Positions 2,541-45,421 of a DNA stretch of 56,028 nucleotides are shown here, piece by piece. The DNA is taken from assembly GCF_902805925.1 (NCBI RefSeq), contig NZ_CADCUP010000001.1:1-56028 (forward strand), in the 5' to 3' direction. Within the stretch, counting starts at the first letter, position 1, and every line of letters starts with the position of its first letter. The DNA is from an uncultured Nocardioides sp. Lineage in GTDB: Bacteria; Actinomycetota; Actinomycetes; Propionibacteriales; Nocardioidaceae. The position numbers and the translations under genes were made by a program. The notes under the pieces were generated by a model. It searched no databases and was not told where the DNA came from. It worked only from the letters and a program-made list of their open reading frames with translations.

Positions 2541-3080
2541 TCAGGCCTCTGTGACCTGCGACTCAGGACCCGACGCGGGCCCGGTCTCGGTGCGCGCCCG
2601 CTCGTCGAGGTCCTGCAGCAGCGAGCGGAGCTCGGAGCGCATGAAGTCGCGGGTGGCCACCTCGCCGACCGACATCCGCAGGGAGGCGACCTCGCGGGCG
2701 AGGAACTCCATGTCGGCGTGCGCCCGGGCGTTGGCCTGCCGGTCCCGCTCGTTGATGATCTTGTCGCGCGTCTCCTGCCGGTTCTGGGCGAGCAGGATCA
2801 GCGGCGCGGCGTAGGAGGCCTGGAGGCTGAGCATCAGGGTCAGGAAGATGAACGGGTAGTCGTCCCAGCGCAGCCCGGCCGGCGCCAGGAGGTTCCAGGC
2901 GACCCAGACCAGGACGAACAGGGTCATGTACATCAAGAACCGCGCCGTGCCCATGAACCGGGCGAACTGCTCGGCGAAGACCCCGAAGGCGTCGGAGTCG
3001 TAGCTCGGCCGCCGCACCAGCGAGCGGCGCGCCTCCCGGGGGGTGTCCAGGCGGGGGCGGTGGGCGCGGGACTCGCTCAT
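2541..3080 (-). CDS. DUF1003 family membrane protein
   Basis: 179 residues. A basic N-terminus leads into two transmembrane helices (about 50-68 and 80-105). The second carries the DUF1003 signature, with LSLQASYAAPLILLAQNRQ followed by an acidic/basic coiled-coil C-terminus (about 110-170). Function is unknown for the family. Its ATG overlaps the stop of the upstream MgtE/CBS gene (ATGA, 3077-3080), so the two are translationally coupled. From memory, the DUF1003 and MgtE-like pair next to mrp is a conserved actinobacterial neighbourhood. Confidence 0.9.
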   Translation of the reverse strand: MSESRAHRPRLDTPREARRSLVRRPSYDSDAFGVFAEQFARFMGTARFLMYMTLFVLVWVAWNLLAPAGLRWDDYPFIFLTLMLSLQASYAAPLILLAQNRQETRDKIINERDRQANARAHADMEFLAREVASLRMSVGEVATRDFMRSELRSLLQDLDERARTETGPASGPESQVTEA

Positions 3081-4342
3081 GCGCGACCGCCGATCGGCCC
3101 GGGACGGACGGCGTCGTCGCGCCAGTTCGCCGGGAGCATGTGGTCGAGCAGGTCGTCGACGGTGACCGCGCCGAGCAGCCTGCCCTCCTCGTCGACCACC
3201 GGCGCCGCCACCAGGTTGTACGTGGCGAGGTGGGCGGCCACCTGGTCGATGCCGGCCTCGGGGTGCAGCGGGTCCATCGACTCGTCGAGCGCCGCCGCCA
3301 CCAGGGTGGAGGGCGGCTCGCGCAGCAGTCGCTGGATGTGGGCGGCGCCGAGCAGCCGGCCCGTCGGCGTCTCGAGCGGCTGCCGGCACACGTAGACCAG
3401 CGCCGCGAGCGCGGGCGTCAGCTCGGGGTTCCGCACCTGCGCCAGGGCATCGGCGACCGTGGCCTGCGGGTCCAGGATCACCGGCTCGGGGGTCATCATG
3501 GCGCCGGCCGTGTGCTCGGCGTACGACATCAGGCGGCGCACGTCGTCGGCGTCCGCGGGCTGCATCAGGGCGAGCAGGGTCGCGGCCGTGTCGGGCGGCA
3601 GGTCGGCGATCAGGTCGGCGGCGTCGTCGGCCGACATCTCCTCGAGCACGTCGGCGGCGCGCTCGGAGTCCAGGTGCTCCAGGATCTGGACCTGGTCCTC
3701 GTCGGGGAGCTCCTCCAGCACGTCGGCCAGCCGCTCGTCGTCGAGCGCCGCGATGACCGCCGCGCGCCGCTCGGCGGGGAGGTCGTGGATCATGTGCGCG
3801 GCGTCGGCGGGCCGCATCTCGTTCATGGCCGCGATCAGCTGGGTGGCGCCCTGCGTCTCCTCGCGCCGGGTCAGGCCGTCGACGTCGCGCCACTCCGCGA
3901 CGTGCGTCTGGCCCTTGCGCCGGAACCCCTTGGCCGGCTCGGCGACCGCGACCCGGCTGACGACCCAGTCGCGGTTGCGCGCCTGCTCCATCGCGACGTC
4001 GTAGACCGTGCCCGAGACGCCGGACGGCTGGATGGTCACCGAGCGGTCGAGCATCTGCGCCATCACCAGCGTCTCGGTGGATCGCTGCTCGAAGCGCCGC
4101 ATGTTGAGCAACCCGGTGATCGACACCTGACCGGCGTCGATGAAGGTCACCCGGGTCATCGGCACGAAGATGCGTCGCCGGCCGAAGACCTCCGCGACCA
4201 GGCCGAGCACGCGGGGCTGGTTGGCCTCCGACCGCAGGGCGACCACGACGTCGCGCACCTTCGCCACCTGGTCACCCTGGGGGTCGAAGATCGGCAGGCC
4301 GACGAGCCTGGCGACGTAGACGCGGGTGGGGGTGGTGCTCAC
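3077..4342 (-). CDS. Soluble PRC-barrel / MgtE_N / CBS-domain protein
   Basis: 421 residues with a GTG start. Order: PRC-barrel-like N-terminus (about 5-90), MgtE N-terminal helical superhelix (about 155-270, with repeated HDLPAERRAAVI-like turns), then two CBS domains (about 285-410). There is no transmembrane segment, so it is not a magnesium channel; it has the cytosolic sensor half of MgtE without the pore. It could sense Mg2+ or adenine nucleotides and act on a partner, perhaps the coupled DUF1003 membrane protein (inference). A TAGGTT box (complement of 4349-4354) ends 6 nt before the GTG, which suggests a leaderless transcript. Confidence 0.85.
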   Translation of the reverse strand: MSTTPTRVYVARLVGLPIFDPQGDQVAKVRDVVVALRSEANQPRVLGLVAEVFGRRRIFVPMTRVTFIDAGQVSITGLLNMRRFEQRSTETLVMAQMLDRSVTIQPSGVSGTVYDVAMEQARNRDWVVSRVAVAEPAKGFRRKGQTHVAEWRDVDGLTRREETQGATQLIAAMNEMRPADAAHMIHDLPAERRAAVIAALDDERLADVLEELPDEDQVQILEHLDSERAADVLEEMSADDAADLIADLPPDTAATLLALMQPADADDVRRLMSYAEHTAGAMMTPEPVILDPQATVADALAQVRNPELTPALAALVYVCRQPLETPTGRLLGAAHIQRLLREPPSTLVAAALDESMDPLHPEAGIDQVAAHLATYNLVAAPVVDEEGRLLGAVTVDDLLDHMLPANWRDDAVRPGPIGGRA

Positions 4343-4386: not shown

Positions 4387-5988
4387 TCAGCGTTGCGCGG
4401 AGGAGTAGAACTCCCGGGCGCAGGTCTCGCCCGCGCAGTCGCGCTGCTCCTTGGTCAGGCGGCGCAGCTCGCGCAGCTGGCCGGCGAAGCGCGGGTCGTC
4501 GGCGACGCTGCTGAGCTCCCACGGGTCGAGGTCGCGGTTGTAGAGCTCCTCGCGGCGACCGGGGGTCCGGACGTAGGTCCAGGGCCCCGCCCAGACGCCG
4601 TCGTACAGCGGCTTGGTCCCGCCCTTGACCTTGTAGCCCTCGATCGGCACGACGCGGGTGTCGGCCCCCGTCCTGAGGTACGGCGTGACGTCGACGCCGT
4701 CCTGCGGGCGACCGGGGGTCGCCCCGGCCAACGACGCGAAGGTCGTCGCGATGTCGGCGTTGGTCACCGGTGTCGGCACCGTGCCGCCGGGCGGCAGCCC
4801 GGGTCCGCGGATGACCACGGGGATGCGGAGGATGGGGGAGAAGTGCCAGAGCTTGCCGGTGAGGTTGTGCTCTCCGGAGGCGTAGCCGTTGTCGCCGGTG
4901 AAGACCACCCAGGTGTTCTCGAGCTGACCGGTCTCGCGCAGCGCGTCGACGGTGTCGGCGATGGCCTGGTCGACCGACTGCAGCGCCTCGAGGCGCTGCT
5001 GGTAGGCCTCGCGCAGCAGCGCGCGGTCGCGCTCGTCCCAGCGGGCCCAGGTCACCCTGGCCACCGCCTTGTCGGACGTCTCGTCCTCGAACATGTCGGG
5101 GGTGGCGGGCAGGTCCTGGTCGCTGAAGGTGTTCTCGTGCTCGGGGGCCGGCACGGTCGTCTTGAGGCGCCTGTCGCTGTCGGGGTCGGTCCGCAGCGGA
5201 TCGTCGTCCTGCTGCGGGTGGCCGGTGTGCGGCGCCACGTAGTTGACCCACATGTACCAGGGCCGGTCCCTGCGCGCCGGGTCCCTCACCTGCTCGATGG
5301 ACAGGTCGCGCAGCAGGTCGGTGGAGTACTGCTCGCGCTCGCTCACCACACCGTTGTCGTTGATCTCAGGCTTGGCGAAGTTGTACGTCGAGGGGTCGAC
5401 GGTGGCCTGCCAGTCGGTCCACCCCGGGGGGACGTAGGTCTGGTCGTCCTCCCCGTAGCCGTTGAGGTACTTGCCGACGAACATCGTGTCGTAGCCGGCC
5501 TCCTGCAGCCAGACCGGCAGCGTGTCCTCGTCGGCGAACGCCTCGAAGCCGCCGCCCTCGCCCTCGATGGTCAGCGCCTGGTGGTTGTGGGCGTACTGGC
5601 CGGTGATCAGCGAGGCGCGGGCCGGGACGCAGATCGGCGTCGGGGCCAGGCCGTTGGCGACCGTCACGCCCCGGTCGGCGACGTACCGCTGCAGCTTCGG
5701 CATGAAGGCGATGTCGCCGGGTGCCGCGTCGTCGGCGGTGACGAGGAGCAGGTTGGGCCGCCTCCCGCCCGGCTCGAGCGGTCGCGGCGCCACCGGTGAC
5801 GACGGCAGCACGGTGTCGCGCGGACCGGGGTCGGCCACCGGCGCAGCCGAGGTCGGCACCTGCCGCTTCGGCTTGGCCCGGGGCGCCGCGTCGTCGGAGG
5901 TACAGCCGGCGGCACTGGTCGCCAGGACGGCCAGCGCGGTGACGGCGACCAGCCGGCGCCGGCCGGGGCGTTGCGAGCGGCGCCGCAT
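4387..5988 (-). CDS. Type I sulfatase lipoprotein
   Basis: 533 residues. The N-terminus has an RRR-rich start, a hydrophobic core and a lipobox-like AAGC with Cys29, so export and lipidation are likely. The sulfatase core starts near residue 78 (PNLLLVTADD). Cys120 sits in CVPAR, the C-x-P-x-R site converted to formylglycine, and GDNGY near residue 330 is the second conserved patch. The enzyme would hydrolyse a sulfate ester outside the cell. The usual metal-site DD is present in part as ADDAAP. A TGAGGTG ribosome site lies just upstream. It diverges from a sulfotransferase operon, so one locus holds both sulfate addition and removal. The substrate cannot be read from sequence. Confidence 0.9.
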   Translation of the reverse strand: MRRRSQRPGRRRLVAVTALAVLATSAAGCTSDDAAPRAKPKRQVPTSAAPVADPGPRDTVLPSSPVAPRPLEPGGRRPNLLLVTADDAAPGDIAFMPKLQRYVADRGVTVANGLAPTPICVPARASLITGQYAHNHQALTIEGEGGGFEAFADEDTLPVWLQEAGYDTMFVGKYLNGYGEDDQTYVPPGWTDWQATVDPSTYNFAKPEINDNGVVSEREQYSTDLLRDLSIEQVRDPARRDRPWYMWVNYVAPHTGHPQQDDDPLRTDPDSDRRLKTTVPAPEHENTFSDQDLPATPDMFEDETSDKAVARVTWARWDERDRALLREAYQQRLEALQSVDQAIADTVDALRETGQLENTWVVFTGDNGYASGEHNLTGKLWHFSPILRIPVVIRGPGLPPGGTVPTPVTNADIATTFASLAGATPGRPQDGVDVTPYLRTGADTRVVPIEGYKVKGGTKPLYDGVWAGPWTYVRTPGRREELYNRDLDPWELSSVADDPRFAGQLRELRRLTKEQRDCAGETCAREFYSSAQR

Positions 5989-6001
5989 GCGGACACCTCA
6001 C

Positions 6002-6075
6002 TGTGTCGGGGACTGTGTCGGGGTGGGTCGGCTCCCGATCCTAGACGCCGGTGGCGGAGGCCCTGGTGCTAGGTT
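6002..6075 (+). promoter_or_regulatory. Divergent sulfatase / sulfotransferase promoter region
   Basis: The 130-bp gap between the divergent genes contains a near-tandem repeat CTGTGTCGGGG (at about 6001-6011 and 6013-6023) close to the sulfatase side and a TAGGTT -10-like hexamer at 6070-6075, 43 bp before the GTG of the first sulfotransferase. The repeat could be an operator. No -35 element is convincing. Confidence 0.35.
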
Positions 6076-6118
6076 CGCCTTCGTTGACGAGCCCTTGGAG
6101 AGTGGATCGAGGCAGCAA

Positions 6119-7255
6119 GTGACCCGTCGCGTGATCCTTCACGTGGGTGCGATGAAGACCGGCACGAGCTTCGTCCAGTCCGTGCTGGCCACCCACCGCG
6201 AAGCACTCGCCGACGTGGGCGTCAGCTACCCCGCGGGCAGTCCGCAGGCGGTGCTCGACCTCCTCCGGCTCCCCAAGCAGCCGCGGCAGCACCGGGAGCG
6301 GTGGCAGGCGCTCGCCGCCGAGGGCGCGCAGGACGGCCGCGACCTCCTGGTCTCCATGGAGTTCCTCAGCTTCGCCCAGGACCGCCACGTCGCCGCCGCG
6401 CTGGAGCCCTTCGCCGGCGACCGCATCGAGGTCGTCGTGTCCGTGCGTGACCAGCTCGGCGCCATCCCCGCGCAGTGGCAGACCTACTGCCGCAACCTCG
6501 GCACGGAGGGGTGGCCGGACTACCTCCGCTCGATCCAGCCCACGTTCCTGGGCCGCGCGCGCAAGACCCGCGCGTTCCGGACCTTCAACCGGGCGCAGCA
6601 GATCCCCGCCTTCGTACGCCGCTGGGAGGAGGCGCCCGGTGTGGCCGGCGTGCACGTGGTGACGGTGCCCCCGTCGGGCTCGCCGCCCTCGCTGCTGTGG
6701 GACCGCTTCGCAGCGGCCGCCGGCCTGCCTCCCGTCGAGGTCGACCTCTCCGTGGTGGAGTCGAACCCGTCGCTGGGCTACGGCTCCTGCGACTTCCTGC
6801 GCCGGGCCAACACCCACCTCTCGGTGGTGCAGTCCAAGCCCTACCGCCGCGGCGTGCGCCGCCTCGCCCGCGGCGCTCTGGTCGGTCGACGCGGCGAGGA
6901 GTCCAAGCCGGTCCTCGACCGGGGCGGGGTCAGGCTGGGGCTCTCGATCAACCGCGAGGTCAGCTCCTTCCTCTCCCAGCGCGGCTACCCGGTGTTCGGC
7001 GACCTCGCCGACATCCGGCTCGAGGCGGACCCTGACGACGCGCCCGACCGGGCGGCGGAGGTGGACGACTCCGAGACGCGCGGCGCCGTGCTCGCCGCCC
7101 GTGCGTGGCTGGCCGACCGGGTGGAGGGGGTCCCGACGACGGCGCCGGAGTCCCTCGACGAGCTCGTCCGCGAGACGTCGCTGCTGCTGGCCCGGCTCAA
7201 CGGGTGGGCCGACGTCGCCGCAAGGGCCGAGACGACCGGTGCGGGGGTGCGCTGA
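6119..7255 (+). CDS. Sulfotransferase family protein (first of two)
   Basis: 378 residues from a GTG at 6119, preceded by GAGGCAG. The 5'-phosphosulfate binding loop is HVGAMKTGTSFVQ (residues 8-20, Lys13), and a 3'-phosphate-binding strand VVVSVRDQ lies near residue 105, as in PAPS-dependent sulfotransferases. The remaining two-thirds is divergent helical sequence, as usual. It would transfer sulfate from PAPS to a hydroxyl or amine acceptor, probably a glycan or lipid given its neighbours. Its TGA shares its A with the next ATG (TGATG), so translation is coupled. The reading frame extends upstream to 5522 but that part is antisense to the sulfatase. Confidence 0.85.
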   Translation: MTRRVILHVGAMKTGTSFVQSVLATHREALADVGVSYPAGSPQAVLDLLRLPKQPRQHRERWQALAAEGAQDGRDLLVSMEFLSFAQDRHVAAALEPFAGDRIEVVVSVRDQLGAIPAQWQTYCRNLGTEGWPDYLRSIQPTFLGRARKTRAFRTFNRAQQIPAFVRRWEEAPGVAGVHVVTVPPSGSPPSLLWDRFAAAAGLPPVEVDLSVVESNPSLGYGSCDFLRRANTHLSVVQSKPYRRGVRRLARGALVGRRGEESKPVLDRGGVRLGLSINREVSSFLSQRGYPVFGDLADIRLEADPDDAPDRAAEVDDSETRGAVLAARAWLADRVEGVPTTAPESLDELVRETSLLLARLNGWADVAARAETTGAGVR

Positions 7256-8781
7256 TGGTGGCCACCATGCAGGACGTGCGCGTCGACGACGACGGCATCC
7301 GCTTCAGCTCCCACGACGACGTGGTCGTCGACGTCACCTTCGACGGCCGCCGCGTCTGGTCCTTCTGGCTGCAGCGCGACACCGCCGGCCGTGGCGGTGA
7401 CCGGGAGATCGCCTGGCCGCAGCCGCTGCGCCGCTTCCTCGACGGCGCCACCCGGCTCGCCCTGGTCGACCACGTCGCCGACGCCGAGCTGTACGCCGCG
7501 GAGGTCGCCCTCGGCGGCGGCACCGGCCGGATCGCCGTCCAGGACAGGAAGGGCCGGCCGCTGGGCCTCGACAAGTCCAACCGCCTCTCCCGGCTGTTCG
7601 AGAGCCGCGACAGCGACCAGGTCGCGCCGCTCATGGACGCCATCGACACCGTCCTGCATGCGCTCGACAAGGCCGGCATCGAGGGCTTCGTCGCCTACGG
7701 CACGCTGCTGGGCGCCTACCGCGACGGCCGGCTGATCGGCCACGACTCCGACGCCGACCTCGGCTACGTCAGCCGGCACTCCCACCCGGTCGACGTCATG
7801 CTCGAGTCCTTCGCGCTGCAGCGGACGCTGGTCGAGATGGGCTTCGTGGTCACCCGCTACAGCGGCATCGCGGTCAAGGTGCACGTCCCCGAGGCCGACG
7901 GCAGCATCCGCGGGCTCGACGTCTTCGGCGGCTTCATGCGTGACGGCATGCTGTACCTGATGGGCGAGGTGGGCGCGCCGTTCGAGGAGTCCTGGATCTT
8001 CCCGCGCGGCACCGTCGAGCTCGAGGGCCGGACCTTCGCCGCACCGGCGCACCCCGACCGGCTGCTGGCCGCGATGTACGGCGAGGGCTGGCGAGTGCCC
8101 GACCCGGCGTACGAGTTCACGACCCCCGACTCCACGCGGCTGCGCCTCAACGGCTGGTTCCGCGGCATCCGCGTCGGCCAGGGCCGCGGCATGGGCACCC
8201 GTGAGCTCACGCCCGACGAACCCAGCGGGTTCGTGCAGTGGGTGCACGGCCGGTGCGACGCCTCGGTCGGCACCGTCGTCGACGTCGGCTGCGGCTACGG
8301 CACCGACGTGGTGTGGCTGGGCCGGCAGGGCCGCTCCGCGTGGGGGATGGACGCCCACTACAAGTCCTACGTGCGGATGCGGAGGCTCGCCGAGGCGGAG
8401 GACCTGCCCGTGCGGTTCCGCTGGGTCAACCTGACCGAGCAGCGCTCCGTGCTCGACGCCGCGGCCGACCTGAGCCGCCTCCCGGGTCCCCGGGTGCTGA
8501 CCGCCCGGCACGTCCTGGACACCCTCGACCGCGCCGGGCGCGACAACGTGCTGCGGGTGGCCCGCGTGCTCGCCCGCGGCGGCGGCGCCTTCTTCTGCCA
8601 GGTGCAGGTCACGCCCGACCGGAACCCCGAGAGCCACGGCCAGGTCTCGCCCCTCGACCTCGACGACCTGCTGCAGGTCATCGCCGCGCACGGGGGCGAC
8701 GCGGCGCACGTGGAGACCCTGAACGAGACCGACGCGGCCGGTGCCGCGAACATCGCCCGACTGATGGTCACCTGGAAGTGA
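7255..8781 (+). CDS. LicD-type transferase fused to a SAM methyltransferase
   Basis: 508 residues. After a beta-rich N-terminus (1-100), residues 149-170 carry the LicD/FKRP signature GTLLGAYRDGRLIGHDSDAD, whose acidic residues bind metal and nucleotide in phosphocholine or sugar-phosphate transfer. Residues 325-500 are a class I SAM-dependent methyltransferase with DVGCGYG at 343-349. The two halves are joined in one frame without a break. LicD proteins decorate teichoic acids and surface glycans. Here one chain could add a phospho-group and methylate the same polymer (inference). It is coupled to sulfotransferases on both sides. Confidence 0.85.
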   Translation: MVATMQDVRVDDDGIRFSSHDDVVVDVTFDGRRVWSFWLQRDTAGRGGDREIAWPQPLRRFLDGATRLALVDHVADAELYAAEVALGGGTGRIAVQDRKGRPLGLDKSNRLSRLFESRDSDQVAPLMDAIDTVLHALDKAGIEGFVAYGTLLGAYRDGRLIGHDSDADLGYVSRHSHPVDVMLESFALQRTLVEMGFVVTRYSGIAVKVHVPEADGSIRGLDVFGGFMRDGMLYLMGEVGAPFEESWIFPRGTVELEGRTFAAPAHPDRLLAAMYGEGWRVPDPAYEFTTPDSTRLRLNGWFRGIRVGQGRGMGTRELTPDEPSGFVQWVHGRCDASVGTVVDVGCGYGTDVVWLGRQGRSAWGMDAHYKSYVRMRRLAEAEDLPVRFRWVNLTEQRSVLDAAADLSRLPGPRVLTARHVLDTLDRAGRDNVLRVARVLARGGGAFFCQVQVTPDRNPESHGQVSPLDLDDLLQVIAAHGGDAAHVETLNETDAAGAANIARLMVTWK

Positions 8782-8786
8782 GAGCC

Positions 8787-9017
8787 ATGCCCGCCCCCCC
8801 GAAGTTCCTCACCGACCGCCTCGCCGCCCGACGCAGCCTGCGCTCGCGGGTCAGCGCCCTGGAGGAGGCCGTGCAGGAGAACCGGCAGCTCAACCTGCGG
8901 ATCGCCGAGCTGACCGACGCCATGATGGAGCTCGTCGTGCCGCTCTCCGAGCGCGACGAGAGCAAGGTGCAGGCCGTGGTCGACCGCTACCGAGAAAGCC
9001 TGGGCGGTCCCCGCTGA
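8787..9017 (+). CDS. Small coiled-coil protein, DUF6752-like
   Basis: 76 residues. A basic N-terminus is followed by a heptad-patterned helix (about 20-60: ALEEAVQENRQLNLRIAEL) and a short tail. I believe it matches DUF6752, a small family seen beside sulfotransferases and glycosyl enzymes in Nocardioides, but that is recall and not a search. It could be an oligomerisation adaptor that holds the flanking enzymes together. It starts 5 bp after the previous stop and its own TGA shares its A with the next ATG. Confidence 0.75.
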   Translation: MPAPPKFLTDRLAARRSLRSRVSALEEAVQENRQLNLRIAELTDAMMELVVPLSERDESKVQAVVDRYRESLGGPR

Positions 9018-10168
9018 TGGCACGACGGGTCCTCGTCCACCTCGGGCTGCCCAAGACCGGCACCACCTACCTCCAGGCTGCGCTGTGGTCCAACAAGGAC
9101 CGGCTGCGCAAGGCGGGCGTGCTGCTGCCCGGTGCCCGGCACCGCCGCCACCTGCTCGCGTCCCTCGACATCCGCGAGGACCCTCGCCTGGCCCGCCGCA
9201 CGGGCGACATCGCCCACCCGTGGCAGGACCTCGTCGACGAGAGCCGGGACTTCCCTGGCGACGTCCTCATCAGCCACGAGTTCTTCGGGGCCGCCGCGCC
9301 CCGGCACGTACGGCGGATGGTCGACTCCTTCCCCGACCGCGAGCTGCACGCCGTCGTCACGGCGCGGCCGCTGACCGACCTCGTCGCCTCGCGCTGGCAG
9401 GAGTGGATCAAGAACGGCGGCGCGCTGCCCATCGACGAGTGGCCGGCCCGCAGGACCTACGACCCGGCCAACGAGTGGGGCTGGGGCTCCTTCGACCTGC
9501 ACGACATCCTCCAGCGCTGGGAGCAGGTCGTGCCCCGCGAGCGCATCCACGTCCTGCCGGTCGACACCAGCGCCGACCCCGTCGAGCTGTGGCGACGGTT
9601 CTGCGGCGTGCTGGGCGTCGACGCGGACGAGTTCTCCGCACCCGCCGACGTGGTGAACGCCTCCCTCGGCGTCGTGGAGGTCGAGCTGCTGCGCCGCGTC
9701 ACCCCGCACCTCACCGACTTCCTCAGCGCCAGCGACCGCGGCCGGTGGGTGCGCGGCTACCTCGCCGAGGGCGGGGTGCTCCCCGAGTCGGGCGAGAGGT
9801 TCAGGGTCGGACGTGAGGCCTACGAGAACCACCACGTCGGGCGCGCCCGGGCGGCCGTCGACCTGGTGGCCGAGGGGGGCTTCGACGTGCGGGGCGACGC
9901 CTCGCTGCTCGAGCCCCGGCCGCTGCCGGACCACCGGCACCCCGGCGAGGTCACCGACGCCGAGCTGGTGGAGTCCGCGGCCCAGACGATCGCCGCCATG
10001 CTGGAGGACGTCCGCACCATCTCGCGGGAACGCGACGAGCTGCGTCGACGTCTCGTCGAGGAGGAGTCGATGGAGGCCCGCGCGCGCGGCTTCGTCGATG
10101 AGGAGCAGCAGGGATCCTGGGTTAGGCTCTCGCGTTCGTTGGACCGATTTCGGAGGCATGGGGAATGA
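9017..10168 (+). CDS. Sulfotransferase family protein (second of two)
   Basis: 383 residues. The PAPS loop is HLGLPKTGTTYLQ (8-20), a more canonical form than in the first copy, and VVTARPL near residue 115 is the 3'-phosphate strand. The C-terminal 50 residues are a charged helix (ISRERDELRRRLVEEE) likely to form a coiled coil, perhaps with the small coiled-coil protein encoded just upstream (inference). The two sulfotransferases are too different to be a recent duplication. The stop overlaps the next start by 4 bp (ATGA at 10165). A TAGGCT hexamer at 10123-10128 could give an internal promoter. Confidence 0.87.
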   Translation: MARRVLVHLGLPKTGTTYLQAALWSNKDRLRKAGVLLPGARHRRHLLASLDIREDPRLARRTGDIAHPWQDLVDESRDFPGDVLISHEFFGAAAPRHVRRMVDSFPDRELHAVVTARPLTDLVASRWQEWIKNGGALPIDEWPARRTYDPANEWGWGSFDLHDILQRWEQVVPRERIHVLPVDTSADPVELWRRFCGVLGVDADEFSAPADVVNASLGVVEVELLRRVTPHLTDFLSASDRGRWVRGYLAEGGVLPESGERFRVGREAYENHHVGRARAAVDLVAEGGFDVRGDASLLEPRPLPDHRHPGEVTDAELVESAAQTIAAMLEDVRTISRERDELRRRLVEEESMEARARGFVDEEQQGSWVRLSRSLDRFRRHGE

Positions 10169-11457
10169 AGTTCCGGGGGATCACCCTGCTCGTCGTGGCG
10201 CTGCTGCTGACGACGCTCACCGCGTTCTCGACGCCTGCGCAGGCGGGGCGCAACTACACGCCGCGTGACGGCGGCTACTTCAACCACCCGCGCGAGTCCA
10301 AGCGCGAGGAGACCCGCATCGAGCGGACCATCCTGAAGACGATCAACCACGCCAAGCGCGGCTCCCGCATCCGGATCTCGCTGTTCTCCTTCGACCGCCA
10401 GCGGATGGCGCAGGCGCTGGTGCGCGCCAAGAAGCGCGGCGTCCGGGTGCAGGTCCTGCTCAACAACCACCAGTTCACGCCGGCGCAGAGGATCCTCAAG
10501 CAGGGCCTGGGAGGCAAGCGCCGCAAGAAGAGCTTCTCCTACGAGTGCCACTTCGGCTGCCGCCACTTCCAGCTCGGCGAGAACCTCCACACCAAGATGT
10601 TCCTCTTCTCCGAGCTGAAGAGCGGTGCCACGAACATCGTCTTCACGGGCTCGCTGAACCTCACCGAGAACTCCGTGGTCAACCAGTGGAACGACATGCT
10701 GTCGCGGCCCAACGACCCGGCCCTGATGGCCGGCATGGACGAGCTGTGGCGGGAGATGCGCCGTGACAAGCGCGCCAAGGAGCCCTACTTCGTGCGGCAG
10801 GCAGGGGAGTTCCACCTCCAGGCCACGCCGTTCCCCAACCCCACCAGCACGACCGATCCCGAGATGGCGATCCTCAACCAGATCGACTGCGTGACGCCGC
10901 CGGCTGCCGGCTTCGGGCACAACGGGCGCACGGTGGTGCGGGTCTCCATGCACTCCTGGGCCGACGCGCGCGGGGTGTATCTCGCCAAGAAGATGCGCGA
11001 CCTGTACGCCGCGGGGTGCGACGTCCAGGTGATGTACGGCATGGCGGGCGTCGCGGTGCGCAAGGCGCTCGCCACCCGCACGCCCCGTGGCTACCTGCCC
11101 GTCCACGTCGACGGCTACGACACCGACTACGACGGTGAGATCGACCTCTACAGCCACCAGAAGTACCTCGCCGTGTCCGGCACCTACGAGGGCAACCCGG
11201 CCAACGGCGGCGTCTGGACCGGCTCCAGCAACTGGAACTTCGGCGGCCTGCGGGGCGACGAGATGATCATCCGCCTGCCCTACCGGTACTACGGCCAGTG
11301 GCTCCAGAACTTCGAGTACATCTGGAAGCACGGGTCGCACCTGGCCCGCTTCATCCCCTACCTGGTGCCGGGCACGTCCGGGCGCATGGTGGTGCAGGAC
11401 ACCGAGCCCGTCGACCAGCCCAACCTGAGGAAGGGCGAGGCCTGGGAGGACGACTGA
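10165..11457 (+). CDS. Secreted phospholipase-D-like protein
   Basis: 430 residues with a clear signal peptide (hydrophobic 5-22, cleavage after AQA at 25-27). Two PLD-type half-sites are visible: HTK at 142-144 followed by GSLNLTEN, and HQK at 331-333 followed by GSSNWNFGGLRGDE. Both keep the His and Lys but lack the Asp of the full HxKxxxxD signature. PLD-superfamily proteins cleave or transfer phosphodiesters. Outside the cell this one could act on phospholipid or on phosphodiester-linked glycan. It is the last gene of the sulfotransferase operon, followed by a short hairpin. Confidence 0.85.
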   Translation: MKFRGITLLVVALLLTTLTAFSTPAQAGRNYTPRDGGYFNHPRESKREETRIERTILKTINHAKRGSRIRISLFSFDRQRMAQALVRAKKRGVRVQVLLNNHQFTPAQRILKQGLGGKRRKKSFSYECHFGCRHFQLGENLHTKMFLFSELKSGATNIVFTGSLNLTENSVVNQWNDMLSRPNDPALMAGMDELWREMRRDKRAKEPYFVRQAGEFHLQATPFPNPTSTTDPEMAILNQIDCVTPPAAGFGHNGRTVVRVSMHSWADARGVYLAKKMRDLYAAGCDVQVMYGMAGVAVRKALATRTPRGYLPVHVDGYDTDYDGEIDLYSHQKYLAVSGTYEGNPANGGVWTGSSNWNFGGLRGDEMIIRLPYRYYGQWLQNFEYIWKHGSHLARFIPYLVPGTSGRMVVQDTEPVDQPNLRKGEAWEDD

Positions 11458-11562: not shown

Positions 11563-12777
11563 ATGGGCCGTCTGTGCCAGACCGAGGGCCTCTCCGAGGA
11601 CCAGACCGAGATCCTCAAGGCGGTCCGGCAGTTCGTCGACACCCGGATCATCCCGGTGGCGACCGAGCTCGAGCACGCCGACGAGTACCCCCAGGAGATC
11701 GTCGACGGCCTCAAGGAGCTCGGCATCTTCGGGCTGATGATCCCCGAGGAGCACGACGGGCTCGGGGAGTCGCTGCTGACCTACGCCCTGTGCGTGGAGG
11801 AGATCGCGCGCGGCTGGATGAGCGTCTCCGGCATCATCAACACCCACTTCATCGTCGCCTACCTGCTGATGCAGCACGGCACGCCCGAGCAGAAGCAGAA
11901 GTACCTGCCCCGCATGGCCTCCGGGGAGGTGCGCGGCTCGTTCTCGATGTCCGAGCCGGGGCTCGGCTCCGACGTCTCCGCCATCAAGACCCGCGCGAAG
12001 CGGACCGACTCCATCGATGGGGGAGGCTACGAGATCACCGGCCGCAAGACGTGGCTGACCAACGGCGGCACCTCCAACCTCGTGGCGGTGCTGGTCCGCA
12101 CCGACGACGACGCCGAGGAGGGCACCTCGGTGCACCAGCGGATGTCGACCTTCCTGGTGGAGAAGGAGCCGGGCTTCGGCGAGACCGCCCAGGGCGTCAC
12201 CATCCCCGGCAAGATCGAGAAGATGGGCTACAAGGGCGTCGACACCACCGAGGCGGTCTTCGAGGGCCACCGGATCTCCGCCGACCAGGTCCTCGGCGGG
12301 AAGCCCGGCAGGGGCTTCTACCAGATGATGGACGGCGTCGAGGTCGGCCGCGTCAACGTCGCCGCCCGCGCCTGCGGCATCGCCCACCGCGCCTTCGAGC
12401 TCGGCATCGCCTACGCCCAGCAGCGCGAGACCTTCGGCAAGCCCATCGCCCAGCACCAGGCGATCCTCTTCCGGCTCGCCGAGATGGCGACCAAGGTCGA
12501 GACCGCCCACGCGATGATGGTCCGCGCCGCCCGCCTCAAGGACAAGGGCCGGCGCAACGACGTCGAGGCCGGCATGGCCAAGTACCTCGCGGCGGAGTAC
12601 TGCAAGGAGGTCGTCGAGGACTCCTTCCGCATCCACGGCGGCTACGGCTACTCCAAGGAGTACGAGATCGAGCGCCTCTACCGCGAGGCCGCCTTTCTGC
12701 TCATCGGCGAGGGCACCGCCGACATCCAGAAGATGATCATCGGGCGCCGCCTGCTCGAGGACTACAAGCTCCGCTGA
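11563..12777 (+). CDS. Acyl-CoA dehydrogenase
   Basis: 404 residues, the normal family length. Domains run N-terminal helical (15-130), beta-barrel (130-235, with MSEPGLGSD and TWLTNGG FAD/substrate signatures) and C-terminal helical (240-400). The catalytic base is Glu383 in LIGEGT, the position used by short- and medium-chain enzymes, and GYGYSKEYEIERLYR precedes it. It oxidises an acyl-CoA to the trans-2-enoyl-CoA with FAD and passes electrons to ETF. A GAGGA ribosome site precedes the ATG. An enoyl-CoA-hydratase-like MaoC gene lies 1.6 kb downstream. Chain-length preference cannot be assigned. Confidence 0.95.
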   Translation: MGRLCQTEGLSEDQTEILKAVRQFVDTRIIPVATELEHADEYPQEIVDGLKELGIFGLMIPEEHDGLGESLLTYALCVEEIARGWMSVSGIINTHFIVAYLLMQHGTPEQKQKYLPRMASGEVRGSFSMSEPGLGSDVSAIKTRAKRTDSIDGGGYEITGRKTWLTNGGTSNLVAVLVRTDDDAEEGTSVHQRMSTFLVEKEPGFGETAQGVTIPGKIEKMGYKGVDTTEAVFEGHRISADQVLGGKPGRGFYQMMDGVEVGRVNVAARACGIAHRAFELGIAYAQQRETFGKPIAQHQAILFRLAEMATKVETAHAMMVRAARLKDKGRRNDVEAGMAKYLAAEYCKEVVEDSFRIHGGYGYSKEYEIERLYREAAFLLIGEGTADIQKMIIGRRLLEDYKLR

Positions 12778-12916: not shown

Positions 12917-14140
12917 GTGCGGCCATCTCGGTACGCCCACTCCGACGCACTGCGTGCAGGCGCCGTGGCGGTCGTCGTCGCCGTGATCCTCGCTGCGCTG
13001 ACCCTCGACCTCGATGGCTCGCCCCGCTCGGAGCCCGCCCCGCGGGCCGAGGCCGGAGCGGCGCCGGTGGAGGCCGAGGTCGAGATCGAGGTCGTGGAGG
13101 AGCAGGTCGAGCAGGTCGCCGCGCGCGCACGCCCCCGGAAGACCAAGCCCAAGTCGGCCAAGCAGCAGGTCGTCGAGCGCGCGAGGGCGGTCAAGAAGCT
13201 CGCCCGGGTCGCCCAGAAGAAGGCCGACTACCGCGAGGACCTGCTGGTGAAGCTGGGCCGCGTGCCCGTCGGCGCCACCGCACCGACCAGCGTGCGCATC
13301 AGCTCCTTCAACATCCTGGGTGCCGGCCACACCGCCCCGGGTGGCAACCGTCCCGGCTGGGCCGGCGCCGTGACCCGCATGCAGTGGCAGCTGAGCCTGC
13401 TCCAGCTGCACGACGTCGACGTCGTGGGCTTCCAGGAGTTCCAGCCGCCGCAGTACGCCTCCTTCATGGCCTCCGCCGGATCCCAGTACGGCGTCTACCC
13501 GGGCCCCGCGCTCGGCCCCGCCGCGATGGCCAACTCGATCGCCTGGCGCCTCGACAAGTGGGAGCTGGTCTCCTCCACCGGGATCGACATCCCCTACTTC
13601 GGCGGCAACCCGATCAAGATGCCGCTCGTGCTGCTGAAGAACAGGCAGAGCGGCCGCCAGATCTACTTCGCCAACTTCCACAACCCCGCCGACGCCCACG
13701 GCCCGGCCCAGGGCTTCCGCAACCAGGCGACCCAGATCCAGGTCAAGATGGTCAACGACCTGCGCGCGACCACCGGTCTCCCGGTCTTCATCACCGGTGA
13801 CATGAACGACCGCGAGGAGTACTTCTGCCCGATGACCACCCTGGCCTCCATGAAGGCGGCCAACGGTGGCGGCAGTGGTCCCGGTGCCTGCGCCATGCCG
13901 CCCAAGCCGTGGCAGGTCGACTGGATCTTCGGCTCGCCGGAGGTGACGTTCAGCAACTACGTCGCCGACCGCAGCCCGCTCGTGGCCCGCAGCACCGACC
14001 ACCCGATGATCGTGGCCGACGCCACCGTCGCCGCAGCGGTCGGCACCGGCGACTGCTACCCCGTCCGCAAGGGCACCGGATGGGTCCCCTGTCCCGGTGA
14101 GGGCACCCTGGGGCGCACCGACGGCAGCAGCACCCCCTGA
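12917..14140 (+). CDS. Membrane-anchored endonuclease/exonuclease/phosphatase family protein
   Basis: 407 residues from a GTG at 12917 with a strong TAGGAGGC site 7 nt upstream; a longer frame from 12818 is rejected because it lacks one. An N-terminal helix (13-30) anchors or exports the protein, followed by an acidic then very basic linker (45-115). The EEP fold begins near 127. SSFNILG (129-135), Glu174 in GFQEF, NFH (253-255), GDMN (294-297) and TDHP (360-363) are the metal and phosphate ligands. It would cleave a phosphodiester or phosphomonoester outside the membrane; DNA, sphingolipid and inositol-phosphate substrates are all possible. A TAGACT hexamer lies at 12846-12851. Confidence 0.85.
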   Translation: MRPSRYAHSDALRAGAVAVVVAVILAALTLDLDGSPRSEPAPRAEAGAAPVEAEVEIEVVEEQVEQVAARARPRKTKPKSAKQQVVERARAVKKLARVAQKKADYREDLLVKLGRVPVGATAPTSVRISSFNILGAGHTAPGGNRPGWAGAVTRMQWQLSLLQLHDVDVVGFQEFQPPQYASFMASAGSQYGVYPGPALGPAAMANSIAWRLDKWELVSSTGIDIPYFGGNPIKMPLVLLKNRQSGRQIYFANFHNPADAHGPAQGFRNQATQIQVKMVNDLRATTGLPVFITGDMNDREEYFCPMTTLASMKAANGGGSGPGACAMPPKPWQVDWIFGSPEVTFSNYVADRSPLVARSTDHPMIVADATVAAAVGTGDCYPVRKGTGWVPCPGEGTLGRTDGSSTP

Positions 14141-38033: not shown

Positions 38034-39395
38034 ATGTCGATGTTCAAGTGGGAGGTCGTCGACCCGGAGCCCGGCGTGGCGGTCGCGCCGCACCAGCGCC
38101 TGCCGTGGAGCAAGACGATCGGCCTCGGCGCGCAGCACGTCGTGGCGATGTTCGGGGCGACGTTCGTCTTCCCGCTGGTGATGGGCCTCGACGCCAACCT
38201 CGCCATCATGTTCTCGGGCCTCTGCACGATCCTGTTCCTGCTCATCTGCTCCAACAAGGTGCCGTCCTACCTCGGCACCAGCGCCTCGTTCGTGGCGAGC
38301 GTCGCGGCGATCCGCGCCCAGGGCGGCGACTCCGCCGACGTCACCGGTGCGATCATGGTCGCCGGCATCGTGCTGGCCCTCGTCGGCGTGCTCGTCCACT
38401 TCGCCGGCGCCCGCCTGATCCACCGGATCCTGCCGCCCGCGGTCACCGGAGCGGTGGTCATGCTGATCGGCTTCAACCTGGCGCCGGTCGTCGCGGGCGT
38501 CTACTGGCCCCAGGACCAGTGGATCGCCCTGCTGACCGCGGCGTTCATGGTCTTCGCCGCGGTGACCTTCCCGGGCTTCTGGTCGCGCATCGCGGTGTTC
38601 CTCGCGCTGATCTTCGGCTACCTGCTGTCCTTCGCCGCCGACCTGGTCCTCGGCCCGATCACCTCCGTGCTGGGCGGCGCCACCGAGGCGACCGAGCACG
38701 ACCGCGTCAGCTGGGCCGGGGTCCAGGCCGCCGACTGGATCGGCTTCCCCAGCGGCACGCTCGCCGACGGCGTCGACGCCGTGCACGGTCCGAGCATCTC
38801 GCTGACCTTCGTCCTCCTGGTGCTCCCCGGCGTCATCGCCCTCATCGCCGAGAACACCGGCCACGTCAAGGCGGTCGCCGAGATGACCGGTGACGACCTC
38901 GACCCCTACATGGGCCGCGCCATCGGCGCCGACGGCCTGGCCACGGCGTTCGCCAGCGCGTTCGGCGGCTCGCCGACCACGACGTACGCCGAGAACATCG
39001 GCGTCATGGGCGCCACCCGCGTCTACTCCACCGCCGCCTACTACGTCGCTGCCGCGGTCGCGATCCTGCTCGGCCTGTGCCCGAAGTTCGGGGCGATCGT
39101 CAACGCCACCCCCGGTGGCGTGCTCGGCGGGATCACCGTGGTGCTCTACGGCATGATCGGTCTGGTGGGCGCCAAGATCTGGGTCGAGAACCGCGTCGAC
39201 TTCGGGCTGCCCGTCAACCTGGTCGGCCTCGCCGCCGGCATCATCATCGGCATCGGCAACGTCTCGCTGCAGGTCACCGACGACTTCCAGCTCGGCGGCA
39301 TCGCGCTCGGCACGATCGTCGTCATCGTGTTCTTCCACATGGTCGCCTGGCGGCACCGCGCCACGGACTCGGGCGAGGTCACCCGCGCACTATGA
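38034..39395 (+). CDS. NCS2 uracil/xanthine-type permease
   Basis: 453 residues with about 12-14 transmembrane helices. QHVVAMFGATFVFPLVMG (about 24-41) and GGSPTTTYAENIGVMG (about 309-324) are the NCS2 signatures; the latter with the ENxG run is shared by uracil permeases (UraA). Start at the ATG 38034 with AGGAGGGA; an in-frame GTG at 37989 lacks a site. It imports a nucleobase by proton symport. Whether the ligand is uracil, xanthine or another ring is open; the downstream Mo hydroxylase favours a purine-like ring. Confidence 0.92.
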   Translation: MSMFKWEVVDPEPGVAVAPHQRLPWSKTIGLGAQHVVAMFGATFVFPLVMGLDANLAIMFSGLCTILFLLICSNKVPSYLGTSASFVASVAAIRAQGGDSADVTGAIMVAGIVLALVGVLVHFAGARLIHRILPPAVTGAVVMLIGFNLAPVVAGVYWPQDQWIALLTAAFMVFAAVTFPGFWSRIAVFLALIFGYLLSFAADLVLGPITSVLGGATEATEHDRVSWAGVQAADWIGFPSGTLADGVDAVHGPSISLTFVLLVLPGVIALIAENTGHVKAVAEMTGDDLDPYMGRAIGADGLATAFASAFGGSPTTTYAENIGVMGATRVYSTAAYYVAAAVAILLGLCPKFGAIVNATPGGVLGGITVVLYGMIGLVGAKIWVENRVDFGLPVNLVGLAAGIIIGIGNVSLQVTDDFQLGGIALGTIVVIVFFHMVAWRHRATDSGEVTRAL

Positions 39396-39417
39396 GGAGG
39401 ACCGCATGAGGAGGACC
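39392..39417 (+). repeat. Tandem duplication of a ribosome-site segment
   Basis: ATGAGGAGGACC occurs at 39392-39403 and again at 39406-39417, 14 bp apart, spanning the permease stop and giving two AGGAGG sites before the next GTG. Confidence 0.6.
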
Positions 39418-39419
39418 CC

Positions 39420-40259
39420 GTGAAGCCGGCGCCCTTCGCCTACGTCCGCCCGTCGTCGCTGTCGGAGGCCCTCACCGCTCTCGGTGAGGACCCCGACGCG
39501 AAGGTCCTCGCCGGTGGCCAGTCGCTCCTGCCGCTGCTCTCGATGCGGCTGGCGCAGCCCTCGCGGCTCGTCGACATCAACGGGCTGCCGGACCTCGACC
39601 ACGTCGACGTCACCGACGAGGGCGTGCGCGTGGGGGCGCTCGCGCGGCACAGCGCGGTGCTCGCCTCGGCGGAGGTCGAGCGGGTGCAGCCGCTGGTCAC
39701 CCTGGCGCTGCGGCACGTCGCCCACGCGACGATCCGCAACCGCGGCACCACGGTGGGCTCGGTGGTGCACGCCGACCCCGCCTCCGAGCTGCCGGCGGTG
39801 CTGGCGCTGCTGGGCGGTTCGGTCGACGTGGAGGGCCCGCGCGGGCGGCGTACGGTCGCCGCCGAGGAGCTGTACGTCGGCCCGCTCGAGACCTCGCTCT
39901 CCCACGACGAGATCGCCGTGGAGGCGTTCTTCCCGGCGCTGGGCCCGCGCTCCGGGGTGGCGTTCGAGGAGCTGGCCCGCCGGCACGGCGACTACGCGAT
40001 GGCCGGCGTGGCGGCGCTGGTCGAGGTCGACGGCGACGACGTCGTCTCCGCGAGCGCCGGCTTCTTCTCGGTGTGCGAGCGGCCCACGGTCGTCGACCTG
40101 ACCTGCGCCGAGGACCCCGGCGAGGCGGCCCTGGCCGAGCTCGAGCCGTCGGCCGACATCCACGCCAGCCTCGACTACCGGCGCCAGCTCGTGCGGGTGC
40201 TGACGCCCCGCGTGCTGGCCGCCGCCACCGAGCACGCCCGGAGGAGGGCCCATGGCTGA
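39420..40259 (+). CDS. Molybdenum hydroxylase FAD-binding subunit
   Basis: 279 residues from a GTG. KVLAGGQSLLPLLSMRL (about 28-44) and ATIRNRGTTVGSVVHADPASELPA (about 102-125) are the two FAD-binding motifs of CoxM/XdhB-type subunits. It passes electrons from the Fe-S subunit to the final acceptor. The C-terminal CO-dehydrogenase flavoprotein domain follows. It overlaps the Fe-S gene by 8 bp. Part of a three-gene xanthine-dehydrogenase/CO-dehydrogenase family enzyme. Confidence 0.92.
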   Translation: MKPAPFAYVRPSSLSEALTALGEDPDAKVLAGGQSLLPLLSMRLAQPSRLVDINGLPDLDHVDVTDEGVRVGALARHSAVLASAEVERVQPLVTLALRHVAHATIRNRGTTVGSVVHADPASELPAVLALLGGSVDVEGPRGRRTVAAEELYVGPLETSLSHDEIAVEAFFPALGPRSGVAFEELARRHGDYAMAGVAALVEVDGDDVVSASAGFFSVCERPTVVDLTCAEDPGEAALAELEPSADIHASLDYRRQLVRVLTPRVLAAATEHARRRAHG

Positions 40260-40755
40260 GGTGTTCCGCGACGACCTGCACGACGTCACGCTGCACGTCA
40301 ACGGCGCGGCGCACGACGTCCGCGTGCCCGCGCGGCGGCTGCTCTCCGACGCGATCCGCCACGACTGCGGCCTCACCGGCACCCACGTCGGCTGCGAGCA
40401 CGGCGTGTGCGGCGCCTGCACGGTGCTGCTCGACGGTCGGCCGGTGCGCTCGTGCCTGATGCTCGCGGTGTCGGTCGCCGACGCCGAGATCACCACGGTC
40501 GAGGGGCTCGGTGGCGACGACGACTCGCTCGGCCCGGTGCAGCAGGCGTTCGCGGAGTGCCACGGCCTCCAGTGCGGCTTCTGCACCCCCGGCTTCCTCA
40601 CCACGATCACCGCGGGCCTGCGCGAGAACCCCACGCCGACCCGCGAGGAGGCGACCGAGATGATCGCCGGCAACCTGTGCCGCTGCACCGGCTACCAGAA
40701 CATCGTGAGGTCGGTCCTGCGTGCGGCCGAGATCCAGGCGGGTGAGCAGTCGTGA
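40252..40755 (+). CDS. Molybdenum hydroxylase [2Fe-2S] subunit
   Basis: 167 residues. The plant-type cluster has Cys48, Cys53, Cys56 and Cys68 (CEHGVCGAC...C); the second, all-helical cluster has Cys108, Cys111, Cys143 and Cys145 (CGFC...CRC). All eight ligands are present. The stop overlaps the large-subunit GTG by 4 bp. Confidence 0.95.
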   Translation: MAEVFRDDLHDVTLHVNGAAHDVRVPARRLLSDAIRHDCGLTGTHVGCEHGVCGACTVLLDGRPVRSCLMLAVSVADAEITTVEGLGGDDDSLGPVQQAFAECHGLQCGFCTPGFLTTITAGLRENPTPTREEATEMIAGNLCRCTGYQNIVRSVLRAAEIQAGEQS

Positions 40756-43139: not shown

Positions 43140-43765
43140 AGGTCACGGGCGTTAGCGTCCTGCAGGCTCCCGTCGAGCGGGTCTGGGACGCCCTGCTCGA
43201 CCCCTCCGTCCTGGTGCGCACGATCCCGGGCTGCTCGAGGCTCGAGGCGACCGGGGAGAACTCCTACGACATGACCGTCACCGCCGGCGTCGCCGCGATC
43301 AAGGGCACGTACGCCGGCAGCTGCACGCTGCACGACCTCAAGCCGCACGAGTCGCTGCAGATGGACCTCCGGGGCGCTGGCGCCCCGGGCACCATCGGCG
43401 CGCAGGTCGCGGTCTCCTTCGCCGCCGCGGGCGACGGCACCACCCGGGTCACCTACGACGCCGACGCCGTCGTGGGCGGCATGGTCGGCGGGGTGGGCCA
43501 GCGGATGCTGACCTCGGTGTCCCGCAGGATGGCCGCCGAGTTCTTCGGCAACATCGGCGACGTGCTCTCCGGCGCCTCGTTCTCGACGGCCTCCCCGGTC
43601 GAGGCGGCGGCCCAGTCGTCGTCCCCCGGCAGGCCGCGGACCGTCTTCACGCCCCCCGCCGCGGCGGCCGGCGGCCACGACGACTTCCTGCGCGGCGTCG
43701 GCGTCGGCGCAGGCCTCGTGCTCGTCGGCGTCGTCGCGGGCGCGGTGCTGGGGCGCCGCCGGTGA
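43136..43765 (+). CDS. CoxG-like SRPBCC protein with C-terminal anchor
   Basis: 209 residues. The SRPBCC/CoxG domain (1-145) starts with APVERVWDALLDPSVLVRTIPGC, the CoxG signature. A Ser/Ala/Pro linker leads to a C-terminal helix (about 188-206, GAGLVLVGVVAGAVLG) ending in RRR, a tail anchor. CoxG recruits carbon-monoxide dehydrogenase to the membrane; here it probably docks the Mo hydroxylase. Overlaps both neighbours (ATGA, GTGA). Confidence 0.87.
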   Translation: MKVTGVSVLQAPVERVWDALLDPSVLVRTIPGCSRLEATGENSYDMTVTAGVAAIKGTYAGSCTLHDLKPHESLQMDLRGAGAPGTIGAQVAVSFAAAGDGTTRVTYDADAVVGGMVGGVGQRMLTSVSRRMAAEFFGNIGDVLSGASFSTASPVEAAAQSSSPGRPRTVFTPPAAAAGGHDDFLRGVGVGAGLVLVGVVAGAVLGRRR

Positions 43766-45153: not shown

Positions 45154-45211
45154 CCGGGCGTCTTCATGTTCCCCATCAGCCGGGGTACCGACCTGCAACG
45201 AAGGGAGAGAC

Positions 45212-45373: not shown

Positions 45374-45421
45374 TCGCCGGCGTGCCGGCCCCGTGCGCGC
45401 GCTGCCGCGCCGTGGCTGCGG

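Follow-up and report, generated by a model that had tools for sequence, protein, structure and literature searches.

Which surface polymer would a bacterium decorate with two sulfotransferases, a phosphotransferase fused to a methyltransferase, and a set of exported hydrolases, and would it also build that polymer with them? This question is raised by a locus of an uncultured Nocardioides sp., located in the first 56,028 nucleotides of contig NZ_CADCUP010000001.1 (the window, the whole stretch of DNA analyzed here). An earlier note had proposed a surface-glycan sulfation locus with enzymes for both addition and removal of sulfate, able to make and remodel a sulfated, phosphorylated, methylated polymer. 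Our data are in agreement with a conserved surface-glycan sulfation module, as indicated by the fold of one sulfotransferase, by two adenosine 5'-phosphosulfate (APS) kinases in the genome, and by a gene order kept in relatives. We hold with moderate confidence that this module decorates the wall galactan, or a galactan-linked polymer, of Nocardioidaceae with sulfate, a phospho-group, and methyl.

The locus contains five plus-strand genes. The first, ST1 (6119–7255), encodes a second sulfotransferase-like protein with the motif GAMKTGTS, assigned by its similarity to ST2; its start at 6119 is a GTG codon, and the gene caller favored 6152. It overlaps by 1 base with LicD-MT (7255–8781), which encodes a LicD-family phosphotransferase fused to a class I S-adenosylmethionine methyltransferase, as assigned by Pfam and profile searches. 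After a gap of 5 bases follows the gene for a small helical, coiled-coil-like protein of 76 amino acids of the DUF6752 family (8787–9017), which overlaps by 1 base with ST2 (9017–10168), a protein with a predicted carbohydrate-sulfotransferase fold; ST2 in turn overlaps by 4 bases with a gene for a phospholipase D (PLD)-superfamily protein (10165–11457), presumably exported. On the minus strand, a gene for a presumably exported S1-type sulfatase and probable lipoprotein (4387–5988) diverges from ST1, with 130 bases between them. The joined five genes and the divergent sulfatase were thus confirmed as first described, in both coordinates and spacing; the sulfatase, LicD, and PLD assignments each score above their Pfam cut-offs, and the 76-residue protein now has a family. 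The locus is bounded on the left by mgtE (3077–4342, minus strand; MgtE_N/CBS protein, PF03448, 4e-27), as in many relatives, and on the right by the acyl-CoA dehydrogenase gene ACAD (11563–12777, plus strand; PF00441, 5.5e-44). Beyond ACAD lies a gene for a probably exported endonuclease/exonuclease/phosphatase (EEP)-fold protein (12965–14140, plus strand), absent from the list of the earlier note, with homologues inside the locus in relatives. Searches for Rfam families at gathering scores, tRNAs, and promoter-like sites found nothing, and the one terminator-like site was at chance level.

The locus genes include no glycosyltransferase, polymerase, or exporter, so decoration of a polymer is likelier than its synthesis. 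The proposal that the set makes the polymer was not supported in that form; genes of this kind lie in a glf/glfT2/ABC cluster on contig C229 of the same genome. This galactan cluster encodes two glycosyltransferase family 2 (GT2) proteins, a formylglycine-generating enzyme (FGE), Glf, GlfT2, an ABC-2 and an ABC protein, and an amidase/FG-GAP protein.

We then consider whether the locus is kept as a unit. The named loci (L056–L135) are best LicD-MT matches, 80 kept of 155, in relatives titled Nocardioides, Marmoricola, Pimelobacter, Nocardioidaceae, Propionibacteriales, or Actinomycetes, and their frequencies are frequencies among carriers. A LicD-MT gene was called in 79 of the 80 (not in L079). 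DUF6752 follows LicD-MT in 78 of these 79 loci, an order far beyond chance, and the full trio of LicD-MT, DUF6752, and sulfotransferase is present in 66 of 79; this trio is the core of the locus. A second set, L035–L053, was chosen among the best ST2 matches and may share genomes with the named set; here, tblastn detected the trio in 19 of 19 loci, with LicD-MT in two pieces in L043. The five-gene order of the window recurs in L038, L039, L040, L056, L057, L060, L067, and L187. The comparison with related genomes that the earlier note had called for therefore found its gene order conserved.

Between mgtE and ACAD, LicD-MT is found in 66 of the 80 named loci, in an interval of 3.3–14.7 kb. A sulfotransferase accompanies it in 59 of these 66 (two or more in 29), a PLD gene in 44, an EEP gene in 53, and either of the latter in 54. 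Four loci (L159, L160, L161, and L163) have, in or next to the locus, a GT2 protein and a protein of 727–791 amino acids (with a YfhO match in L159), perhaps a lipid-linked glycosylation pair. A candidate TagF-like polymerase in the mgtE-ACAD locus of the same four was rejected, as the match is limited to the GT2 part (Pfam on L159).

The variable gene content besides the trio, and the other genes that adjoin mgtE in five trio-less family members outside the genus, would also fit an interval that is a hotspot for unrelated exported PLD- and EEP-type nucleases, with sulfotransferases acting on a small molecule. The PLD protein weakly matches the nuclease models NucT and DrmC. We regard this explanation as very unlikely: the gene order counted above (78/79 and 66/79, in loci chosen by LicD-MT) argues against it, as do the heparan-type fold of ST2 and the joint absence of the module with GlfT2, both described below. 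The PADLOC matches are likewise weak and partial: mad2 matches the methyltransferase part at 4.6e-5, and PLD is matched by DrmC (from 7e-4) and by ZacB (0.0045). A defense island was rejected as a candidate.

ST1 has zero Pfam or NCBIfam matches, and no NCBIfam model recognizes ST1 or ST2 at cut-off. Because both proteins went unrecognized by Pfam and NCBIfam, their identity needed a structural test. ST1 and ST2 share 29% identity (1.3e-22 with ST2 as the query), and ST1 homologues lie upstream of LicD-MT in some relatives. The AlphaFold2 model of ST2, built with 60 aligned sequences including the window's own, has a predicted local distance difference test (pLDDT) score of 93.5 and a long C-terminal helix (residues 314–381). 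In a Foldseek search, the bacterial sulfotransferase 3rnl from Alicyclobacillus (8.6e-7) was the sole PDB match at E ≤0.001. We compared the model by VIA-align with Foldseek's top 1000. The top 14 rows are heparan sulfate N- and 3-O-sulfotransferases and 3rnl, with Z scores of 15.7–13.9; the best is NDST1 (8cd0_A; Z 15.7, root mean square deviation 3.9, 233 aligned), and 3rnl reaches 15.0. Row 15 is another sulfotransferase (Z 11.6), with further sulfotransferases below. Sequence identity to ST2 is 9–13% for the heparan enzymes and 19–20% for 3rnl, and these values mean that the VIA-align result shows the fold of ST2, not its function. When relatives of ST2 were searched against PDB sequences, a single match appeared, with E 0.056. 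According to the model, then, ST2 has a carbohydrate-sulfotransferase fold of the heparan type, which is a claim about fold rather than Pfam family membership; ST2 differs from the heparan enzymes and 3rnl in its low identity, its long C-terminal helix, and its scores under the Pfam cut-offs.

Sulfotransferases that use 3'-phosphoadenosine 5'-phosphosulfate (PAPS) have a 5'-phosphosulfate loop with a catalytic lysine and a 3'-phosphate site with a serine, as set out in an excerpt of a published account (PMC11625862). In the ST2 loop, PKTGTT, residues K13, T14, and T16 are identical in 60 of 60 orthologues, as are E88 and R117. The 3'-phosphate site of sulfotransferases also includes an arginine; in ST2 the 3'-phosphate sites were assigned via sequence spacing, without superposition. 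E88 may be the base of ST2.

PAPS could be supplied by two APS kinases that are clearly recognizable in the genome; a third match is borderline. One of the two, on C191, adjoins genes that by eye are CysD- and CysN-like. The other stands at a contig edge (L147, C67:19–1251), has a 220-residue N-terminal part, and is ~5.5 kb from a nucleotide-sugar-type NTP_transferase gene, one of the nucleotide-sugar genes of C67. The genome also contains a second sulfotransferase-like pair (L034, C193:6102–9540), which flanks a gene of 378 amino acids without a Pfam match and has no LicD-MT among its neighbors on C193. Elsewhere, L154 (G003:C147) has eight sulfotransferase-like genes in an array, and its contig also carries a GlfT2 gene.

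The LicD part of LicD-MT scores 29.3 bits with PF04991 (cut-off 22.6). Pfam methyltransferase models reach at most 25.2 bits, every one under its cut-off, and a profile of the LicD-MT family matches solved methyltransferases over the non-LicD part (8gdu, 4.7e-11). The same profile matches fukutin-related protein over the LicD part (6kaj, 2e-5) and, weakly, WbdD over the methyltransferase part (~1e-3). The motif GHDxDxD is present in 85 of 86 LicD-MT homologues. Fukutin-related protein uses CDP-ribitol; LicD-MT resembles it and the LicD family in the 6kaj match and the Pfam score, and differs in its fused methyltransferase and an extra N-terminal part. The partner protein matches PF20537 (DUF6752) at 1.6e-21 and 76.2 bits (cut-off 27).

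The gene set is centered on Nocardioidaceae. At 1e-40, 86 of the 149 family genomes have LicD-MT; in 396 phylum-wide genomes, with three candidates scored per genome, it was detected at 1e-30 in six, own genome included, and in three of the six the match was confined to the LicD part. A genome of the same phylum filed far from the family (G248, L145) has LicD-MT and DUF6752 beside ACAD, with neighbors that by eye resemble genes of the window; this occurrence may be a misfiling or a transfer. A second, inverted LicD-MT/DUF6752 pair lies beyond ACAD in L041, L043, L044, L045, L049, and L052, with no sulfotransferase adjacent.

S1-type sulfatases that depend on formylglycine have the motif C-x-P/A-x-R. 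The sulfatase of the locus (PF00884, 2.2e-42, 145.8 bits) reads CVPARASLITG and has a lipobox-like SAAGC, and the motif is kept in three of three named-locus homologues, one of them just 30% identical. Sulfatases and related phosphonate/alkaline-phosphatase-superfamily hydrolases make up the best 60 of the 83 matches that it has among PDB sequences (top match 9s8y, 1.8e-27). The FGE gene of the genome (PF03781, 1.2e-80) lies in the galactan cluster on C229, between GT2 and glf, and its product carries the two-cysteine stretch RGGSYLCHDSYCHRYR, whose cysteines we take to be the active-site cysteines.

The earlier note had asked whether the sulfatase co-occurs with the five genes. It recurs at the locus in some relatives: the five-gene order is accompanied by a sulfatase in L038, L039, L040, L067, and L187, where unlike in the window an EEP gene lies between the sulfatase and ST1, and a sulfatase at the locus is also found in L070, L185, and L186. 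Among the 66 named mgtE-ACAD loci, a sulfatase (≥45% identity) is present in 2. Addition and removal as the core design was therefore not borne out, and the sulfatase is an occasional add-on.

Such rarity at the locus would suit a nutritional sulfatase that frees sulfate from outside compounds and merely neighbors the module. In the genus there are many sulfatase paralogues elsewhere, several beside an FGE gene, and the best NCBIfam model for the protein is a choline-sulfatase, far under its cut-off (111.8 vs 433 bits). In 12 stretches round more distant sulfatases (L188–L199, 10 genomes) LicD-MT was not found, and FGE adjoins the sulfatase in 6 of the 12. The nearest relatives of the enzyme point the other way. 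The four closest non-self sulfatases in a 40-genome sample of the genus (G131, G555, G571, and G554; 52–56% identity) all lie at the trio locus (L039, L185, L186, and L187). Two of these loci, L185 and L186, also carry an FGE gene next to the sulfatase, at 62% identity to the FGE of C229. We thus see a nutritional role as possible yet doubtful. In this lineage, sulfate removal is linked to both loci and is optional rather than core.

A canonical PLD has two HxK(x)4D (HKD) motifs. The PLD protein (PLDc_2, 5.2e-21) has HTKMFLFS and HQKYLAVS, in which His and Lys are kept and the HKD Asp is replaced by Ser, so that it lacks the canonical HKD; in relatives this last position is variable, Asp included. 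A PDB sequence search with it gave no match at 0.01, and its structure prediction without an alignment was unusable (pLDDT 37.3). The EEP protein matches PF03372 at 3.4e-10 (with a start at 12818). In a crude test on our own predicted gene starts, an N-terminal hydrophobic stretch was seen in 42 of 61 PLD, 83 of 100 EEP, and 3 of 3 sulfatase proteins of the named loci, versus 2 of 132 sulfotransferases, 2 of 87 LicD-MT, and 0 of 83 DUF6752 proteins. The window's own sulfatase and PLD protein each have such a stretch. The predicted stretches would fit making inside and trimming outside.

To which polymer, then, does the module belong? We scored 149 family genomes at thresholds of 1e-20 for sulfotransferase, 1e-40 for LicD-MT, 1e-15 for GlfT2, and 1e-20 for APS kinase; in part of these searches, presence calls were based on some of the first-look candidates of each genome. 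GlfT2 was detected in 103 genomes, LicD-MT in 86, sulfotransferase in 107, and APS kinase in 119. LicD-MT and GlfT2 occur together in 83 genomes, LicD-MT without GlfT2 in 3 (G052, G053, and G058), GlfT2 without LicD-MT in 20, and neither in 43; LicD-MT is thus nearly confined to genomes that also have GlfT2. The corresponding numbers are 95, 12, 8, and 34 for sulfotransferase and GlfT2 (both, sulfotransferase only, GlfT2 only, neither) and 99, 8, 20, and 22 for sulfotransferase and APS kinase.

Fisher tests of these co-occurrences are uncorrected for kinship, and a tree test is the better control for relatedness. Of the 36 genomes from the window's genus, 33 have sulfotransferase, LicD-MT, and GlfT2, and the other three, G044, G072, and G099, lack every one of them. 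It is in just these three genomes that mgtE directly adjoins ACAD (L200–L202); a clean empty site is shown for these genus members only, and in five LicD-MT-negative family members outside the genus (L203–L207) the trio is absent and other genes adjoin mgtE. A tree of MgtE, ACAD, and Mrp (22 rows) rejected G044, G072, and G099 as one clade (approximately unbiased test, p 4.9e-8), indicating that the joint absence arose more than once. Gains and losses counted alike, the starred branches force two changes in joint absence and the best tree three; this control is based on three flanking proteins and on the three genomes without the genes.

In some relatives the two gene sets are also close to each other. 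Among at least 45 same-contig pairs of LicD-MT and GlfT2, 8 are 5–15 kb apart and 26 are 40–58 kb apart. Sulfotransferase/LicD-MT copies lie 5–8 kb from GlfT2 in L152 (G105), L162 (G018), and L164 (G023), with ABC exporter genes and further sulfotransferase and PLD genes close by, and DUF6752 adjoins these copies in L162 and L164. In L164, GlfT2, ABC-2, ABC, Fe-ADH_2, NTP_transferase, and a polysaccharide pyruvyl transferase were confirmed by Pfam, as was Glf in L152; the other assignments in the three loci are by similarity.

The module could instead decorate some other polymer of the wall, either a teichoic or polyol-phosphate acid or a glycolipid, which the same lineages keep along with galactan. 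LicD-MT homologues in L146 and L149 stand beside fusions of IspD and short-chain dehydrogenase/reductase (SDR) domains, which score above (L146) and below (L149) the cut-off of a D-ribitol-5-phosphate cytidylyltransferase model; L149 also has a protein with GT2 and Glyphos_transf domains, and L146 an ABC-2/ABC pair. Both loci are of wall-polymer type and as such also count in favor of the main reading. The own genome has one weak Glyphos_transf match on another contig (1.7e-9), the module is ~40 kb or more from GlfT2 in 37 of the at least 45 same-contig pairs, and G053 has LicD-MT and DUF6752 with no GlfT2 match. Against a separate polymer stand the joint absence of GlfT2, the sulfotransferases, and LicD-MT from three genus members of more than one clade, the closeness of the copies in L152, L162, and L164 to GlfT2, and a GlfT2 gene 14.5 kb from the LicD-MT homologue of L149 (G106). 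We consider a separate polymer rather unlikely.

Several observations weigh against galactan as the decorated polymer and against the activities that we assign. Of the same-contig pairs, 11 are separated by >800 kb. The 20 GlfT2 genomes without LicD-MT, the 12 sulfotransferase genomes without GlfT2, and the nearly complete genome G053, in which LicD-MT and DUF6752 were found with no GlfT2 or sulfotransferase at thresholds, mean that there is no strict link between the module parts and GlfT2. The teichoic-acid-type genes next to LicD-MT homologues in L146 and L149 could belong to a different polymer. Few of the loci include the sulfatase, and FGE was not found within the galactan cluster of eight relatives (L174 and L176–L182), three of which (G146, G131, and G111) have the sulfatase. 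ST2 is below the Pfam cut-offs for Sulfotransfer_3 (12.1 bits; cut-off 27) and Sulfotransfer_1 (10.6; 22). Foldseek places the heparan enzyme NDST1 (8cd0) at rank 29 with E 0.022, below mostly P-loop kinases (E 0.0016–0.02), and adenylate kinase reaches Z 9.1 in VIA-align. At position 125 of ST2, where the 3'-phosphate serine is expected (Arg+8), 21 of 60 orthologues have Ser and 39 Ala. Finally, all substituents of the polymer are predictions from sequences and models.

Decoration of galactan, the reading that we prefer, can be put as a putative pathway. We infer sulfation, phosphorylation, and methylation from folds, families, and context, and likewise the acceptor, the donor, the chemistry, and every reaction. 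In the cytoplasm, ST1 and ST2 would sulfate sugar hydroxyls with PAPS as the donor. LicD-MT, paired with DUF6752 (probably a scaffold), would attach polyol-phosphate or a similar group, donated in CDP-activated form, and methylate the product. The decorated chain would exit via the ABC exporter encoded with glf and glfT2. Sulfates could then be removed outside by the lipoprotein sulfatase, once the FGE from the galactan cluster has activated it, and phosphodiesters could be cut by the exported PLD and EEP proteins.

How does this compare with known systems? Mycobacterial galactan is built by GlfT1 and GlfT2 and exported by Wzm-Wzt, and the excerpt of that source mentions no sulfotransferase or LicD (PMC10951656). 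The own genome is similar in that a single C229 cluster encodes Glf, GlfT2, and an ABC-2/ABC pair; relative to the mycobacterial pathway, the module is an extra set for decoration, tied to the galactan genes mainly by co-occurrence and mostly found at another locus. Among the literature found, the nearest published idea for an actinomycete, as far as the available part of the paper goes, is the wps-1 exopolysaccharide cluster of Actinoplanes missouriensis, which like the window locus has two unlike predicted sulfotransferases, one of them heparan-type, and a methyltransferase (PMC13390465). Both sulfotransferase genes are required there for normal sporangia, and the sulfation chemistry is unproven (PMC13390465). 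Unlike our locus, wps-1 belongs to a Wzx/Wzy pathway, the words LicD and sulfatase are absent from its main text, and the excerpt makes no link to galactan (PMC13390465). Literature searches found none on DUF6752 and nothing related for LicD with sulfotransferase and teichoic acid. None was found for Nocardioides with galactofuranose and cell wall, none for Nocardioides with galactan on its wall (by title and abstract start), and none by title on Nocardioides wall glycopolymers among the matches listed. A sulfated capsule paper was found for Cobetia, not an actinobacterium. Among the matches listed, we have not seen a sulfated or phosphorylated galactan described in Nocardioidaceae.

A further, distinctly unlikely idea takes up the WbdD protein of E. 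coli O9a, in which a phosphate-adding domain, a methyltransferase, and a coiled coil serve an ABC-exported polymer, according to an excerpt of PMC3482155. The resemblance of LicD-MT and DUF6752 to the parts of WbdD is an analogy: WbdD has a kinase where LicD-MT has LicD, and the coiled-coil-like protein here is a separate gene. By this analogy, LicD-MT/DUF6752 would be the Gram-positive counterpart of WbdD and place a cap, a (methylated) phospho-group, on galactan as it grows. A coiled-coil ruler would be formed by DUF6752 together with ST2's long helix, and cap and sulfation would set chain length and license ABC export, with sulfated, capped galactan replacing the arabinan and mycolate layers in Nocardioidaceae.

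The rest of the window includes ordinary purine/hydantoin-type genes at 38034–52078 (xanthine/uracil permease, molybdopterin hydroxylase, hydantoinase A and B), a glycosyl hydrolase of family 6 at 45422–46678 (PF01341, 4.4e-16; N-terminus export-like by eye), and a LanC-like protein at 53767–55083 (PF05147, 4.4e-12).

If galactan is indeed decorated in this way, a sulfated, phosphorylated form of it would be present in much of a family of common actinobacteria. DUF6752 would gain a first context, and a heparan-type sulfotransferase family would stand outside the Pfam models. The locus would then allow the tailoring, sizing, and export of galactan to be tested by simple genetics.

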